Below the pieces are notes generated by a model, which saw only the letters and a list, made by a program, of their open reading frames with translations, was not told the origin of the DNA and did not search any database. Shown in pieces: positions 13,455 to 24,833 of a stretch of DNA of 35,582 nt; within the stretch, counting starts at the first letter, position 1; each line of letters starts with the position of its first letter. The stretch lies in assembly GCA_030053935.1 (NCBI GenBank), contig JASGCU010000016.1:1-35582 (forward strand), read 5' to 3'. The DNA is from Chitinophagaceae bacterium (GTDB lineage Bacteria > Bacteroidota > Bacteroidia > Cytophagales > JASGCU01). A program made the translations under genes and the position numbers.

Positions 13455-16400
13455 TTAAAAAGTAAGTTTTACGTTAAATCCATATCTGCGAGCAGAAGGA
13501 CCTCCGATATAGTCAAATCCTGCACCGTTACGTGTTCCAAAAGCTGTTCGGTTAAAATCAGCAGCAGAATAGAGGGGAGCATTTATAGCACGGAACCAAA
13601 GGTTATTACCTGTTAATGCTATGCTTAGTCCTTTGAGTTTTATTTTTTCTAACACATTTTTAGGTAATGAGTAAGCAAGCGATATCTCACGGAAGTAGAT
13701 GCGAGATGCGTCATATATTCCTACGTCGCTTATGCCATCCCCATGTCCTATAATAGTATTTCCAAAATATACTCCTGCAGTAGTAAGAGGGAGATTGTTG
13801 GGGGTATATCCTGTAACAACTCCTTCTGCATTTCTCACTTCTCTTACACCTGGTAAGATGAGAGGTAGGGAAGTATCGAACTCTTCCAAGTCCTTAGCAA
13901 CTCCTCTCGCAATTGGAGTTGCCGCAGAATAAGAAAATACTTGTCCACCATGGGTATAATCCCATTGCATATTAAGAGATATTCCTTTCCAACTGAGAGT
14001 AGTGATGAAAGCACTTATCCAATCAGCATTCGGGTTGGCTATAATACCTATATCAGATGCTGCTGCATAGTTACCATCTTCTCCTATAATTCTTTGTCCG
14101 TCGGGAGATTTTCTTATATATTTTCCTTTTATGATATTCAATTGTTCACCTTCTATGGCAAAATTTCCCAAATCGGTATACCCATTTATAGGTATCTCTT
14201 TAGATCCTTCTGGTAAGTCAGTTACTTTAGATACATTCTTGGTCCAGTTTACTTTAATATTCCAGTCCCATCCATTGAGTGAACGAAGGGGGTTTATATC
14301 AAAACTGATTTCATAACCACTGTTATTCAAATTTCCTGCATTGATATAACTTTCTGTATATCCTGTAGACGGATCTAAAGGACGGAGGATTATTTGGTCT
14401 TTAGAAACTCTGTTATACCAGGTAAAGTCTAGTTTTAAAAGATTCTTAAGGAGTGTGATCTCTGTTCCTACTTCAAACTCTGTGAGTAATTCGGGCTTCA
14501 GATTCGGATTTGCTAATCTATTAGGGTATTTATTGGTAACATAGTTATAAGCATCTGCTCCAACAAATCTTTGAGAATTGAGCGATATGTATGGTCGGGT
14601 GTTATAAGGATCGGGATAGTTCGCAGAAGAACCGTAGGATACTCTGAGTTTCCAATAATCCAATACACTTGGTAGGAGATTAGGAAAAGCGGCAGTAGGT
14701 AGAAAAGATACACTCACACCTGGGTAAAGAAGAGATTGGTAGTCTTTTTCTACCGTAGAGCCCCAGTCATTTCTTACTGAGAGATCTAAGTACACAAAGT
14801 TTTTAAACCCTAAACTCACGTTTGAATATATACCTGCCCATGCTCGTGTTTCTAATCTATTAAGGTTATATCCTCTCCAATCCTTTGGAAGAGTAGAAGT
14901 GAAGTTTCTATGTTCCAACAGACCAAACACTACTTGTCCTAAACTTTCTAATCCTATTTGTTCGTATGTGTCTTGTCTGAAATTACCTCCAAGAACAGCA
15001 CTGAGATCAAAATTTGATCCTAGTTTTTGTTGAAACGAAAGGATAAGAGAATGATCCCATATAGTATTATTTCCTGTTGTTGTTCTATATTGTCCAGGTA
15101 AAACCTCTGTAGCATACCCTACACCTCCTTTATTTACATAATTAAAGGTTTTTTCAGAATAGGTATCTAATCCTAAACGGTAAGTGATTTTGAGAGCATC
15201 TATTATTTGATAATTAACGTTCATCTGAGAGATAAATCTATCTGTTTTTGATCCTTGCCGTGCATATTCTCTTATCCAATAAGGATTAGTGATAGAGTTG
15301 TTATTCCTATAGTACACATTCGCATGGGTTATAGGATGTTCCCAAGGCCAGTTAGTCAAATCAATGTTTCTAGGGGTATACAGAAGATTCGCCCAAATAG
15401 AAGGACCTCCAACAGAGTTAGATCCTTGTCCTGCTGCTGCGGGAGGGGTTTCTTGTTCCGTTCTTGAAAAGTTAAATGATGCTCCCATAGAGAGTTTATC
15501 TGTCAATTTAGCATTTCCTCCAAAAGAGAAGTTATCACGAGAAAGAGTATTGTATTTTATGAATCCTTCTTCTCCAAGATGACTATAACTGAGTGATATG
15601 TTTCCAAATTCATTTCTCGCAGAAAGAGATAAGGAAGTAGTAGCAGAATACCCTTGTTGAAAGAAATCGTTCACGTTATCAGGCGCAGCAGTAGGAATAT
15701 ATCCTGTTGCTTGTGCAAATTCTGGTCTCTCCGGAAAAACATTTCTCCATTCGTAATATGGATGTCTATCAGTAGGTTTTGGTTTCCCGTCAAATAGAGA
15801 TCCCCAGTTACTAAAGAACTCACCGTATGTGCCATCGAATCCATTTGCCCATTTATTTTGGAATTGAGGCAGTATAGCTTCATTTACATAGTATGATTGG
15901 CTAACAGATCCTTCAAATCTTGGTGCATTTTTTGCTGATGGTCCCCCTGTTTTGGTAGTAATAAGAATAACTCCATTTCTTCCTTGAGATCCATACAGTG
16001 TGGTAGCCGCAAGTCCTCTTAATACACTCATAGAAGCAATATTATTAGGATCTATATCAAGATAGCGAGTAGGTGCTACTTGTCCATCTCTAAAGTCCTG
16101 ATTGCTATCATTAGTAGAAGTATTAATAGGTACTCCATCTACTATCCATAGTGGTTGTGTATTACCTGTTATAGAACTATTTCCACGTATATTAATTCTT
16201 GATCCTGATCCTGCTATACCGGAAGAGTTAAGAATTTGAATACCTGGGGTTCGTCCTTGTAATGCACGTCCTATATCTGTCTCTGGTTTATTATTCAGAG
16301 TAGCCGAAGAGATTGTTGTTTGTGCAAATCCAAGTGTTTTCGCTTCTCTAGAAATACCTTGAGCAGATACTATAACTGCATTTGCATCCAGTTGTTTTAT

Positions 16401-16706
16401 ATCGGCTTTCAAAGCTACATCCATGTCTACCTCTATTGCTCCTTCTTCCACAAGAGTCTCTTGAGGAGTTAAACCAATAAAAGAGAAAACTAATACTCCC
16501 CCTTCTTTTGGAATGGTTAGCTTATAATTGCCATCAATATCCGTGATGGTACCGGTTGTGGTACCTTTTAATACCACATTCACCCCAGGCAGACCTGATC
16601 CATCTTCATGAGATGTAACTTTTCCGGAAATAACCCGGTCTTGTGCATATACTTGATTTACAAATAAGCACATTAACAAAAAACTACTGAGTAATATATA
16701 TCTCAT
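13455..16706 (-). CDS. SusC/RagA family TonB-dependent outer-membrane transporter
   Basis: This 1083-residue outer-membrane protein has a signal peptide (MRYILLSSFLLMCLFVNQVYAQ) and a carboxypeptidase-regulatory-like domain at about 24-100 (ISGKVTSHEDGSGLPGVNVV). A TonB plug domain follows at about 115-255, including TDIGRALQGRTPGIQI and the SusC signature region NPNNIASMSVLRGLAATTLYGS. A roughly 22-strand barrel ends in the aromatic C-terminus NVKLTF. This is the energy-dependent importer partner of the SusD protein encoded next. The length is normal for the family. A 16-bp tandem repeat lies just upstream, and one copy of the 96-bp element lies about 370 bases upstream. A possible -7 element (TAATTTTG on the minus strand, 16828-16835) has no clear -33 partner. 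Confidence 0.96.
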   Translation of the reverse strand: MRYILLSSFLLMCLFVNQVYAQDRVISGKVTSHEDGSGLPGVNVVLKGTTTGTITDIDGNYKLTIPKEGGVLVFSFIGLTPQETLVEEGAIEVDMDVALKADIKQLDANAVIVSAQGISREAKTLGFAQTTISSATLNNKPETDIGRALQGRTPGIQILNSSGIAGSGSRINIRGNSSITGNTQPLWIVDGVPINTSTNDSNQDFRDGQVAPTRYLDIDPNNIASMSVLRGLAATTLYGSQGRNGVILITTKTGGPSAKNAPRFEGSVSQSYYVNEAILPQFQNKWANGFDGTYGEFFSNWGSLFDGKPKPTDRHPYYEWRNVFPERPEFAQATGYIPTAAPDNVNDFFQQGYSATTSLSLSARNEFGNISLSYSHLGEEGFIKYNTLSRDNFSFGGNAKLTDKLSMGASFNFSRTEQETPPAAAGQGSNSVGGPSIWANLLYTPRNIDLTNWPWEHPITHANVYYRNNNSITNPYWIREYARQGSKTDRFISQMNVNYQIIDALKITYRLGLDTYSEKTFNYVNKGGVGYATEVLPGQYRTTTGNNTIWDHSLILSFQQKLGSNFDLSAVLGGNFRQDTYEQIGLESLGQVVFGLLEHRNFTSTLPKDWRGYNLNRLETRAWAGIYSNVSLGFKNFVYLDLSVRNDWGSTVEKDYQSLLYPGVSVSFLPTAAFPNLLPSVLDYWKLRVSYGSSANYPDPYNTRPYISLNSQRFVGADAYNYVTNKYPNRLANPNLKPELLTEFEVGTEITLLKNLLKLDFTWYNRVSKDQIILRPLDPSTGYTESYINAGNLNNSGYEISFDINPLRSLNGWDWNIKVNWTKNVSKVTDLPEGSKEIPINGYTDLGNFAIEGEQLNIIKGKYIRKSPDGQRIIGEDGNYAAASDIGIIANPNADWISAFITTLSWKGISLNMQWDYTHGGQVFSYSAATPIARGVAKDLEEFDTSLPLILPGVREVRNAEGVVTGYTPNNLPLTTAGVYFGNTIIGHGDGISDVGIYDASRIYFREISLAYSLPKNVLEKIKLKGLSIALTGNNLWFRAINAPLYSAADFNRTAFGTRNGAGFDYIGGPSARRYGFNVKLTF

Positions 16707-16724
16707 TGTTTACTTTGTGTTAAA

Positions 16725-16756
16725 TTAATAAATAAATAAATTAATAAATAAATAAA
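16725..16756. repeat. Perfect 16-bp tandem repeat (two copies) before susC
   Basis: TTAATAAATAAATAAA occurs twice back to back at 16725-16740 and 16741-16756, 19 bases upstream of the susC start. It consists of a smaller AAAT unit. Such runs are prone to slippage and lie in the 5' leader, where length changes could alter translation or promoter spacing. Confidence 0.85.
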
Positions 16757-17077
16757 ATGTAATAAATCACTACAAAAAATTAATAACTACTTAATTATAC
16801 TAAATTAAAATAAAATATTCTAAAACGCAAAATTATTTTTTTTTATATACTTTCACTATAACCATTATAAAATCATTCAAAAAACGAAAATTAAACACGT
16901 TTTCTTGTTGTTTTTATATTTTTTATAAAGAAACAAAAATAATAATACTTAAAAATGCAACTTTTCTAATATTAAGGTGTCTTTATGAGTTTTGATAACG
17001 TAAATCTATAAAAAGTATCGTATTTAATCTATAGCTTTAAAATGTTCACCTCTGTGTTTCAGCAAAGTGATATTAAG

Positions 17078-21564: not shown

Positions 21565-22566
21565 TTATTTTGTTATTCTTTGGGATACATAGCTTGGATT
21601 TTTTTCAATCCATGGGGTTTGTTCCAAAAGCCATTTTTCATATTCTTTTGGCTCATCTACTATTACAATATATTTCATAGAAAAATGACCTTTACCACAA
21701 ATTTTATTACATACTAGTTCGTAATTAAATTCAGGGTTACCTGTTTCTTTTCTCATATCTTCGGTAGATTTCGTAGGTAATAACCAAAAAGTAGTAGGGA
21801 GTCCAGGAACAGCATTTATTTGTGCTCTGAAATGTGGGAGATAAAAACTATGTATAACGTCTCTTGATCTTACATTAAATTTCACGTTTTTTCCTTTGGG
21901 AATATGTATTTCTCGTGGAATAAAATCATCATACGATGCTTTATCACTAAAATCTATTCCCATTCTATTTTCAGAATCTGTTAACCGAAAATGGTATTTT
22001 CCTAATTGATTGTCTTTTCCTGGATAACGAGAAACCCATGCAAATTGATATGCCATCACTTCTATTTCTACAGCATCTTCCGGTGCTTTTCCTGTTATCT
22101 TTTGCCATGTATCCAATCCACTAATGATTAAAAAAGTAAGCACTATAGCAGGAATGATAGTCCATATAAATTCTAATGTATGATTTTCTGGGTAATATTT
22201 TGCTCTATACAATTTTTTATATTGGTATTTCCAAGAAAATCCAAATAAGATTATATGAGTAATAATAAAAGCTACACTAATAATAGCAATAGTAGACCAA
22301 AATAAAAAATCTGTCTCTTTCCCATGCGCCGATGCAAGAGGAAGGTCGTAACTCTTAAAATGTGTAAAAGAATACCAAGCAAAAAATGCGATTCCTAAAA
22401 AAAGAAATAGCATCATTAAAAAAGCATTTACTTTATTGCTTTTAGTATCTTTTTCATCTTTATTTTGTGTTCCTTTTAAAATATCTGTAACTTTACTTAT
22501 TTTTGCTAATATGAAAATAATAAGTATTGTAAACAGAATCCCTAGAATAAAAATAGTTGTAAGCAT
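21565..22566 (-). CDS. coxB: Cytochrome c oxidase subunit II
   Basis: This 333-residue membrane protein carries the CuA centre that receives electrons from cytochrome c or directly from alternative complex III. About four hydrophobic segments precede the periplasmic cupredoxin domain (near 4-22, 48-66, 88-110 and 132-150), an N-terminal extension common in Bacteroidota. The CuA ligands can be placed as H239, then C286, C290, H294 and M297 in CNKICGKGHFSM. The asparagine-lysine between the first cysteine pair is the usual Bacteroidota form. It follows actF by 17 bases. In most relatives coxA comes next, but here the strand continues with an unrelated PLP-enzyme gene. Confidence 0.95.
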   Translation of the reverse strand: MLTTIFILGILFTILIIFILAKISKVTDILKGTQNKDEKDTKSNKVNAFLMMLFLFLGIAFFAWYSFTHFKSYDLPLASAHGKETDFLFWSTIAIISVAFIITHIILFGFSWKYQYKKLYRAKYYPENHTLEFIWTIIPAIVLTFLIISGLDTWQKITGKAPEDAVEIEVMAYQFAWVSRYPGKDNQLGKYHFRLTDSENRMGIDFSDKASYDDFIPREIHIPKGKNVKFNVRSRDVIHSFYLPHFRAQINAVPGLPTTFWLLPTKSTEDMRKETGNPEFNYELVCNKICGKGHFSMKYIVIVDEPKEYEKWLLEQTPWIEKNPSYVSQRITK

Positions 22567-22583
22567 ATTGTTTTAATTTTTGT

Positions 22584-23852
22584 TTAAATATGATGGTGTA
22601 AACTTTCTTCTAACAATGGGTGATTTTTGGCGACAAGTGGTACTTTGGCTAAATGCGATAAAATAACATATAAAAATGCCGCAAAATACACACATAAAAG
22701 ACCTATTTCTAAAAATCCTATCCCTCCATTCTCCTTAAGAGTCCCTGGTGTTACCATAAGATAGAAATCTAACCAATGCCCTAATATTACTATTGGACAC
22801 ACTAGTTTTAAAGTACGAGTATATCGTTTAGCATCCCTAGGCATCAGTATTAAAAAAGGTAAAAAGAAATTAACGATAAGATTTATAAAAAATATTGGTG
22901 CGTAATGATCGCTCTTCCATCTTTGTAAAAAATAGATAGTTTCCTCAGGAATATGTGCATAATAAATCAATAAAAATTGAGAAAACCATATATAAGTCCA
23001 AAAAATACTGAATCCCCATACGAATTTTCCTAAATCATGTAAATGGTTTTCATTTATTATATTTAAATAGCCCCTGTCTTTCAATGAAGCAACTATGTAA
23101 GTAATGAGTGCTAATCCCGATACCCACCAACTAGCAAAGACATACCATCCTATCATGGTACTAAACCAATGCGTGTCTATTGATAATATCCAATCCCATG
23201 CGGATATAGATGATGATACTGCAAAAAACACTAAAAATATGGTAGATAACACTCGTATTTTTTTCCAATATATATGTCCTCCATCAATATCTTCTGCTAA
23301 AGAATGTTTCCTTATAACCCAAAATAGAAAAAACCATACCGAAAAAAATACTACTATTCTGGTAAGATAAAATGGAATATTTAAAAATGCTTTTTTCCCA
23401 TCTATAATAGAATCGTATTCAGAACTGCTTTTATCATATAAAGATTCGTGAGTCCAATGAAATAAGTCATGTTTTGCTACTAAAAATATTACTAAGGTCA
23501 ATACTCCTGCTATAGGTAACCAATACCCAAATGCTTCTGGTATTCTTTTTATTCCTGCTGACCAACCCGCTTGAGCAGCGTACTGTATTGCTACAAAAAA
23601 TACCCCTATGAGAGATAATCCTGTAAAAAACACATTGTTTATCCATAAATTAGCGAACAATCTTTGTGTCCAATGAAATACACTGTGCTCTCCTTCTGAA
23701 ACATTTGCACTGTGAATCTCATTATGTCCTGAATTCACAATCAACAATATTCCTAAAAGAGATAAAACTACTCCTATAATGCCTACTATAAGTAAGCGTT
23801 TTTTTGTAAGTGTTGTAAATATATACGATTTTTCTATCAACTTTTCTGTCAT
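22584..23852 (-). CDS. actF: Alternative complex III subunit ActF (quinol:cytochrome c oxidoreductase)
   Basis: This 422-residue integral membrane protein has about ten predicted helices. It matches ActF, the NrfD-like/PsrC-related subunit that ends the actABCDEF operon of alternative complex III, which oxidises quinol in Bacteroidota in place of cytochrome bc1. Recognisable features are the first helix after a short basic N-terminus (KKRLLIVGIIGVVLSLLGIL), AGWSAGIKRIPEAFGYWLP, SAWDWILSIDTHWFSTMIGWY and FLLIYYAHIPEETIYF, all typical of the family. coxB follows at 17 bases, the standard order. ActA-E are not upstream: instead there is about 980 bases of non-coding sequence with two miniature elements. 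The gene itself appears intact. Confidence 0.9.
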   Translation of the reverse strand: MTEKLIEKSYIFTTLTKKRLLIVGIIGVVLSLLGILLIVNSGHNEIHSANVSEGEHSVFHWTQRLFANLWINNVFFTGLSLIGVFFVAIQYAAQAGWSAGIKRIPEAFGYWLPIAGVLTLVIFLVAKHDLFHWTHESLYDKSSSEYDSIIDGKKAFLNIPFYLTRIVVFFSVWFFLFWVIRKHSLAEDIDGGHIYWKKIRVLSTIFLVFFAVSSSISAWDWILSIDTHWFSTMIGWYVFASWWVSGLALITYIVASLKDRGYLNIINENHLHDLGKFVWGFSIFWTYIWFSQFLLIYYAHIPEETIYFLQRWKSDHYAPIFFINLIVNFFLPFLILMPRDAKRYTRTLKLVCPIVILGHWLDFYLMVTPGTLKENGGIGFLEIGLLCVYFAAFLYVILSHLAKVPLVAKNHPLLEESLHHHI

Positions 23853-24304
23853 TGTATTATTACTAAACTATTATTGTGTATGTTCTGATTTTTTAACTTT
23901 TATAATAATGTATTTTTTTATTTTTGTTCTCTCTAATTAGCTATACAGAGTGTTTTATAATTTTTGTGTTTTATAAGCTTTATCATAATTATATACCAAA
24001 AATTTATATGGTACCAATGAAATAGGATATTATGCTTCTCAGTATCTTAAAATAATTGATTATTTTTATTTTTTTGAGTTTGTACTATTTTTTTCTTTTT
24101 TAGTTATTCTAATCTTTTTCTTTTCTTTGTAATGTTTTTACTTAGTTTTATTGTTATGGAATATAATCTATTCTATTTTAAAAAAGAAAATTACTAAATA
24201 ATATCAAATTTTTATATTTCTTGATAAAAATAGTGTAAATACTGTAAAAAAATAAAAAAAATTCTATTGTAATATTTTTACATAAAAAATATCTTGTATG
24301 CGAA

Positions 24305-24329
24305 TGTATCGAAAGTCACTTTTGATACA
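24305..24329. repeat. Inverted repeat (12-bp arms) beside miniature element copy B
   Basis: TGTATCGAAAGT and ACTTTTGATACA form arms matching at 11 of 12 positions around a single central base. The segment through about 24350 resembles 26456-26506 (shared CTTTTGATA and TTTTGTAA blocks with substitutions between), so it belongs to a second, more diverged repeat type. Confidence 0.5.
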
Positions 24330-24355
24330 CTCGCAGTTTTGTAACTATTATAATG

Positions 24356-24451
24356 GGGGGTTCTAAAAATTGATTTCTTGCAAAAAAAAGTGTTGGTAAC
24401 TATTGATTTTTAAGGGGTACAGTTTTTAGGATTTGAATTTTTAGAACCCCC
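24356..24451. mobile_element. 96-bp MITE-like element, copy B (5-bp duplication TAATG)
   Basis: It begins GGGGGTTCTAAAAATTGA and ends TTGAATTTTTAGAACCCCC. The outer 16 bases are perfect inverted repeats of each other, the best-preserved termini of the three copies. TAATG directly flanks both ends (24351-24355 and 24452-24456). The interior is almost identical to copy C and non-coding. All three copies share the same orientation. Confidence 0.88.
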
Positions 24452-24710
24452 TAATGTATAAATAGGGTTAAAATTCAATGTTTTGTAAACAGAACTTTTT
24501 GAACAGTAGTTAGATAAAACAGGGATTCCTCTCTAAAATCGCTATTGTACAGAATTATTAAGTTTTCGTAAGAAACTCAATATATAGCAGGGCAGGACGG
24601 GTATAATGAATAGTATAGTATTTAAAAAATAGAGGATTAAATAAAGAATTGGTTATGAAAAATAGTCAAATAAAATTAATATCATATAAAGATACTTTAA
24701 AATTATAAAG

Positions 24711-24806
24711 GTGGGTTCTAAAAATTGATTTCTTGCAAAAAAAGTGTTGGTAACTATTGATTTTTAAGGAATACAGTTTTTAGGATTTGAATTTTTAGAA
24801 CTCCTC
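24711..24806. mobile_element. 96-bp MITE-like element, copy C (5-bp duplication TAAAG)
   Basis: It begins GTGGGTTCTAAAAATTGA and ends GAATTTTTAGAACTCCTC, and is flanked by TAAAG on both sides (24706-24710 and 24807-24811). It differs from copy B by a few substitutions near the ends and one base in an A-run. It lies only 255 bases from copy B, and its right end is about 28 bases from the stop codon of the cytochrome/monooxygenase gene. Confidence 0.86.
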
Positions 24807-24833
24807 TAAAGTAAATAATCAACTAATGCTTAC

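Follow-up and report, generated by a model that had tools for sequence, protein, structure and literature searches.

Alternative complex III (ACIII) associates with its oxidase in a supercomplex. In Cytophagales and other Bacteroidota, with Flavobacterium johnsoniae (6BTM) and Rhodothermus marinus (6F0K) as solved examples, ACIII and its aa3/caa3 oxidase are encoded by eight genes in one place, actABCDEF being followed by coxB and coxA. More generally, PMC5928083 notes that an oxygen-reductase cluster often follows the ACIII gene cluster, which fits the association of ACIII and the oxidase. Here, we describe a genome of the Cytophagales in which the same eight genes lie in four places instead of one. 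The window, i.e., the whole stretch of 35,582 nucleotides that was analyzed, is an entire contig (C16) of the 2.55-Mb draft genome (G000) of a Chitinophagaceae bacterium, which comprises 156 contigs with a completeness given as 97.7%. The window contains actF and coxB, and a homology search found no match to actA-E or coxA inside it. Most likely, ordinary genome rearrangement in this lineage broke a vertically inherited actABCDEF-coxB-coxA operon at three joints, and the window carries one of the four resulting pieces.

Distribution of the act-cox genes

A preliminary description of the window, made from its sequence, had noted that actF and coxB stand apart from the remaining act-cox genes and had suggested that these are placed elsewhere; their complete absence would have marked the pair as a relic. 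Both observations hold, and all the missing genes were located: actAB on contig C35, actCDE on C93 and coxA on C7. All six Act subunits, CoxA and CoxB are thus encoded in the genome, as judged by homology to the operon of a relative, in four places rather than in a single cluster. The joints actB-actC, actE-actF and coxB-coxA are broken, while the ancestral order is kept within each block. The blocks sit inside their contigs and are flanked by unrelated genes.

Where searched genome-wide, the genes appear to occur once. The whole-genome search gave one match for actF, in the window, as it did for actA and actB, and the COX2_TM profile returned the coxB of the window above the cut-off, along with one sub-cut-off match containing stop codons. 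The subunit names rest on homology to the operons of relatives, on Pfam matches and on solved relatives of ActF. The ActF of the window has the solved ACIII chain 6btm_F as its best structural match and, in profile scans, no match in Pfam or NCBIfam. CoxB scores 123.2 on the NCBIfam CoxB model, below its cut-off of 147.7, and its best E-value to solved chains of cytochrome c oxidase subunit II is 9.8e-16.

Gene order in related genomes

Gene order was compared over 98 loci: 18 were taken from 34 whole-genome relatives with an actF match, and the GTDB contig collection supplied the other 80, the best among its 490. At least two contigs were present in both sets, as judged from their equal length (L035/L100 and L042/L151). 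Genes were considered neighbors when on the same strand with a gap below 1.2 kb, and pairs were counted only where both genes were found. The joints that are broken here are intact in every counted relative (actB-actC in 88/88, actE-actF in 98/98 and coxB-coxA in 93/93 loci), as are actC-actD (93/93), actD-actE (95/95) and actF-coxB (96/96), with actA-actB adjacent in 81 of 82. The single actA-actB exception is a locus of Bacteroidetes bacterium OLB12 (L160; 4284-7399), where actB is read as two overlapping open reading frames (ORFs), the first directly behind actA; a frameshift, an error in sequencing or a natural division into B1 and B2 may account for this. The full set of eight genes was recovered in 78 of the 98 loci; missing genes fall past the contig end in 19, and one locus is truly split (L043, genome G017). 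The contiguous order is hence the rule and the split is derived, as the preliminary description had presumed, and it is not common to the relatives compared. In an order-wide search, which addressed presence and not gene order, actF was present in 362 of 390 genomes of the same order, this one included.

The exception, G017, belongs to the same order and is among the 18 whole-genome relatives. Its operon is likewise split, yet at actC-actD and actF-coxB, joints that differ from those broken here: on its contig C11, actDEF lies at about 99.3-102.0 kb and coxB-coxA at 77.4-80.3 kb, some 19 kb apart, while actABC was not located. Since G017 falls in another clade, its split appears from the trees to be an independent event. 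As a side observation, the S10 ribosomal block of G017 is seemingly interrupted after rpsC, as judged by eye within C11:72000-110000. Among the loci examined, splitting of the act-cox operon is rare, yet there are at least two separate cases with different joints affected, and the arrangement in the present genome is both derived and uncommon.

Gene integrity and descent

The scattered genes look intact. Among columns that are near-invariant (at least 97% identical among relatives), the Act subunits keep 85/85 (ActA), 180/188 (ActB), 219/219 (ActC), 33/34 (ActD), 25/25 (ActE) and 85/85 (ActF), and the oxidase keeps 49/53 (CoxB) and 278/280 (CoxA), which bears out the earlier statement that actF and coxB are intact. 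ActA carries six CXXCH motifs and ActE one, so that the five core c-heme motifs of ActA and the single one of ActE are accounted for. The usual CuA motif carries a glutamate (CxExC), and the CuA loop of the window CoxB reads CNKICG. Among 96 relatives, the glutamate is retained by 60; the loop has CNK in 34, CQQ in one and a gap in one. Because CNK is common to 34 of the 96, it is a feature of the lineage and not damage.

In a midpoint-rooted tree of six proteins, this genome ranks 56th of 99 by root-to-tip length, close to the median. An Imperialibacter locus (L092), in which all eight act-cox genes are adjacent, is the sister in the trees of actAB (support 0.994), actCDE (0.996) and coxA (0.965), and actF-coxB falls together with it in a larger clade (0.996). 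The G+C content of the four stretches is similar (0.308-0.323). The residues kept, the near-median root-to-tip length and the shared sister lineage favor one operon with vertical descent and continued selection.

A number of points weigh against this reading. Near-invariant residues have been lost from ActB (8/188) and CoxB (4/53), and at the tip the tree of actF-coxB leaves the sister open (0.228). The curated NCBIfam cut-offs are not reached by ActA, ActC, ActD, ActE or CoxA; ActB passes one NCBIfam domain model (TIGR04519), with no full-length model above the cut-off. The genome-wide match counts cover actA, actB, actF, NrfD, COX1 and COX2_TM. Repeats are in excess at the broken ends (binomial 0.006 against all gene gaps or 0.05 against gaps of at least 100 bp, the actF end having been chosen for its repeats), and some link between repeats and rearrangement may exist. 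Finally, a functional complex is predicted from conservation, in comparison with relatives from outside the family.

Neighboring genes and repeats

The features of the four loci are collected in Table 1. Upstream of actF, where relatives have actE, the current neighbor is a copper monooxygenase-like gene, behind a spacer that had been described as about 980 non-coding bases with two miniature elements and that indeed holds two copies of a repeat, R1. The spacer also contains an older repeat, R2, which that description had missed together with the further R2 behind coxB. The gene occupying the place of coxA was correctly recognized as an unrelated pyridoxal phosphate (PLP) enzyme; it is BioF-like, scoring 106.9 bits on TIGR00858 against a cut-off of 426.45. 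On C35, the carbonic anhydrase gene and actAB may form a new operon.

Table 1. Act-cox genes, their neighbors and repeats in the four loci (C16 is the window).
Feature	Contig and position	Strand	Length	Evidence or remark
actF, membrane subunit of ACIII	C16:22584-23852	-	422 aa	phmmer to 6btm_F, E 1.9e-87
coxB, cytochrome c oxidase subunit II	C16:21565-22566	-	333 aa	CuA loop CNKICGKGHFSM; Pfam COX2_TM and COX2 passed
BioF-like PLP enzyme, aminotransferase class I/II	C16:20193-21314	-		downstream of coxB, in the place of coxA in relatives; Pfam Aminotran_1_2, E 4.1e-21
Copper monooxygenase-like gene, sorted by the type IX secretion system (T9SS)	C16:24834-26408	-		Pfam Por_Secre_tail, Cu2_monooxygen, Cu2_monoox_C
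Spacer upstream of actF	C16:23853-24833		981 bp	no ORF of at least 100 aa
R1 copy 1	C16:24355-24453	+		inserted within R2; TAAT/TAAT with edge shifted one base
R1 copy 2	C16:24709-24810	+		target duplication TAA/TAA, exact
R1 copy 3	C16:17077-17177	+		behind M16 peptidase gene
R2, interrupted by R1 copy 1	C16:24278-24502	-		upstream of actF; halves 24317-24349 and 24461-24499
R2, degenerate	C16:21375-21500	.		behind coxB; nhmmer E 7.5e-19
R2	C16:26448-26569	-		upstream of copper monooxygenase-like gene
actA	C35:11728-12993			one match in whole-genome search
actB	C35:13014-16157			one match in whole-genome search
Alpha-type carbonic anhydrase	C35, region 16157-16974	as actB		starts 49 bp behind actB; Pfam Carb_anhydrase
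actCDE block	C93:2967-5496			actD and actE found beside actC
actC	C93:4126-5496			one NrfD match genome-wide, above Pfam cut-off
YjbR-like ORF (named by eye)	C93			144 bp ahead of actC
Bestrophin	C93			behind actE
R1	C93:2823-2925			41 bp behind actE
coxA	C7:19856-21706			one COX1 match genome-wide, above Pfam cut-off
pdxA-like gene (named by eye)	C7			behind coxA

R1 measures about 96 bp and has inverted ends with a terminal stem of about 14-17 bp. It has at least 42 matches in the genome (the best 40 of 145 candidates scored), with identities of 75-99% to the window copy. A search with the R1 core allowing up to three mismatches returned 30 matches as opposed to none in a reversed control. 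Of 30 loci examined for target duplications, three were dropped and 27 had both flanks readable. An exact 3-bp duplication flanks 12 of these 27 copies, compared to 9.3% of mismatched flank pairs, and the best value over all shifts in 500 shuffles was at most 8. Both the copy on C93 (AAT/AAT) and copy 2 of the window are among the 12. With its many short copies, terminal inverted repeats and target duplications, R1 resembles a miniature inverted-repeat transposable element (MITE). RNA folding of R1 involves mainly its inverted ends, and an Rfam scan of two R1 loci gave one sub-threshold match, outside R1. Three further copies (L070 on C103, L071 on C88 and L084 on C6) share a flank pairwise, the left one between C103 and C88 and the right one between C88 and C6, without matching duplications; they may have recombined or may belong to a longer repeat lying at contig ends. 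R2, a more degenerate inverted repeat, measures about 125 bp and has at least 41 matches (the best 40 of 141 candidates being scored). Among the matches listed, identity to the query copy is 76-90%, and the direction of R2 is uncertain as most copies match both ways.

Three of the six broken ends hold repeats: one R1 follows actE, two R1 and one R2 precede actF, and one R2 follows coxB. At the other three ends, after actB and before actC and coxA, neither R1 nor R2 was detected. As a background, R1 or R2 occurs in 15 of 209 gene gaps, or 15 of 78 gaps of at least 100 bp, in fifteen sampled stretches of 20 kb (300 kb). Whether the 96-bp element also flanks the other act-cox genes had been raised beforehand, and the answer is mixed: besides the copy behind actE, there is one 266 bp upstream of actA, with a 100-N gap in between, while none was found in the 20 kb around coxA.

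Repeats, rearrangement and other explanations

In the preliminary description, the elements were thought to mark a plausible breakpoint. On such a view, the operon would have been split when dispersed R1 (or R2) copies recombined, an element between actE and actF having swapped flanks with another copy. The copies behind actE and the two upstream of actF do share one orientation relative to the operon, R2 is found both behind coxB and upstream of actF, and repeats occupy 3/6 broken ends versus 15/209 gaps. A crossover, however, usually leaves mismatched duplications, whereas those of the copy on C93 and of copy 2 match, and copy 1 lies within an R2 whose halves persist on both sides. These halves form two separate collinear BLAST matches of modest significance (E 9.3e-5 and 0.001); the empty R2 site scores 52.1 bits, which by itself does not discriminate, as the R1-containing sequence scored equally by aligning into R1. 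Moreover, neither side of the broken actB-actC joint has a detected R1 or R2, and at coxB-coxA a repeat is present on one side only. As copy 1 and the copy on C93 share AAT, an exchange between them would go unnoticed from the duplications. The duplication test covered R1, and an event mediated by R2 at coxB or actF may have occurred. Because the duplications match and copy 1 interrupts an older R2, the R1 copies are read as simple later insertions and not as exchange points, and we consider recombination through the repeats an unlikely cause of the split. In general, the target-duplication test offers a cheap way to tell whether repeats near a break were its cause or are merely neighbors.

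Also unlikely is a split beyond mere drift, in which each block came under its own control within a new transcription unit (e.g., actAB with the carbonic anhydrase, lipoprotein-like by eye), such that heme wire, membrane core and oxidase are tuned separately. Such tuning would require a means of balancing the subunits, because driving plasmid-borne actA from strong promoters reportedly proved lethal in F. johnsoniae (PMC8552683). The Bacteroidota promoter motif (TTG-N17-23-TAnnTTTG) was uninformative, occurring in 2 of 112 upstream regions versus 7 in the reverse-strand control.

Misassembly would imply that unrelated ends were joined through repeats in the 156-contig draft and that the true operon is contiguous. 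Several R1 copies are indeed located at contig ends (C53:3, C88:37, C103:37, C20:54, C58:97 and C6:119), R1 copies reach up to 99% identity to the window copy, and a 100-N gap precedes actA. Nevertheless, a misjoin at R1 would usually mismatch the duplications, no R1, R2 or N was found at actB-actC, the listed R2 copies are too diverged for easy collapse, and all three joints would need to be wrong, which makes this explanation improbable. Despite the separate locations, it is highly improbable that the pieces are relics or that horizontal transfer brought them in separately, given the near-invariant residues mostly kept in eight subunits, the near-median root-to-tip length, the common sister of actAB, actCDE and coxA, the larger clade that actF-coxB shares with that sister and the similar G+C content.

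Under the favored explanation, ordinary rearrangement would have broken the inherited operon at actB-actC, actE-actF and coxB-coxA, and the repeats at three of the six ends would be independent insertions into spacers rather than crossover points. The blocks actAB, actCDE, actF-coxB and coxA would be expressed as four separate transcription units, whose products would still assemble into a menaquinol-oxidizing ACIII and an aa3-type oxidase. Judging from sequence, four transcription units probably supply one inherited, working complex, for which menaquinol oxidation and a supercomplex with the oxidase are predicted.

Wider genome and comparison with described systems

Elsewhere in the genome, nuoH lies alone at C3:24979-26085, flanked by a cysteine-rich-domain gene on one side and a nucleotidyltransferase gene on the other, and no other nuo gene was recognized by eye in C3:20001-60000 around it; the genes for complex I may be dispersed too. 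A complex-I-like cluster at C1:65191-70577 (Oxidored_q6, Complex1_49kDa, 30kDa and NADHdh) is one that we take to resemble a Hyf/Hyc-type membrane complex.

A literature search, comprising titles and abstract openings of top-ranked records with subscription papers mostly outside it, found no account of a split act-cox operon. What is seen here is a clear yet fairly ordinary fragmentation of an operon with its genes retained. A lineage that keeps the subunits without their linkage constitutes a natural test of whether that linkage matters.

Parts of the present system have described counterparts. The ActA encoded here has an extra N-terminal CXXCH resembling the one reported in F. johnsoniae (PMC8552683). 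R1 is comparable to MITECca01 of Cardinium, which, according to PMC9769881, is likewise short, inverted-ended, multicopy and intergenic, although MITECca01 is 240 bp long as opposed to about 96 bp, with 3-bp duplications, for R1. With respect to the dispersal itself, ribosomal operons that adjoin one another in relatives are found at separate sites in Aquifex aeolicus (PMC3879981). While ribosomal operons were moved in Aquifex, the S10-spc-alpha ribosomal block is whole in the present genome (C3:40203-54370; gene names by eye, rplB by search), and it is the respiratory operon that is broken.

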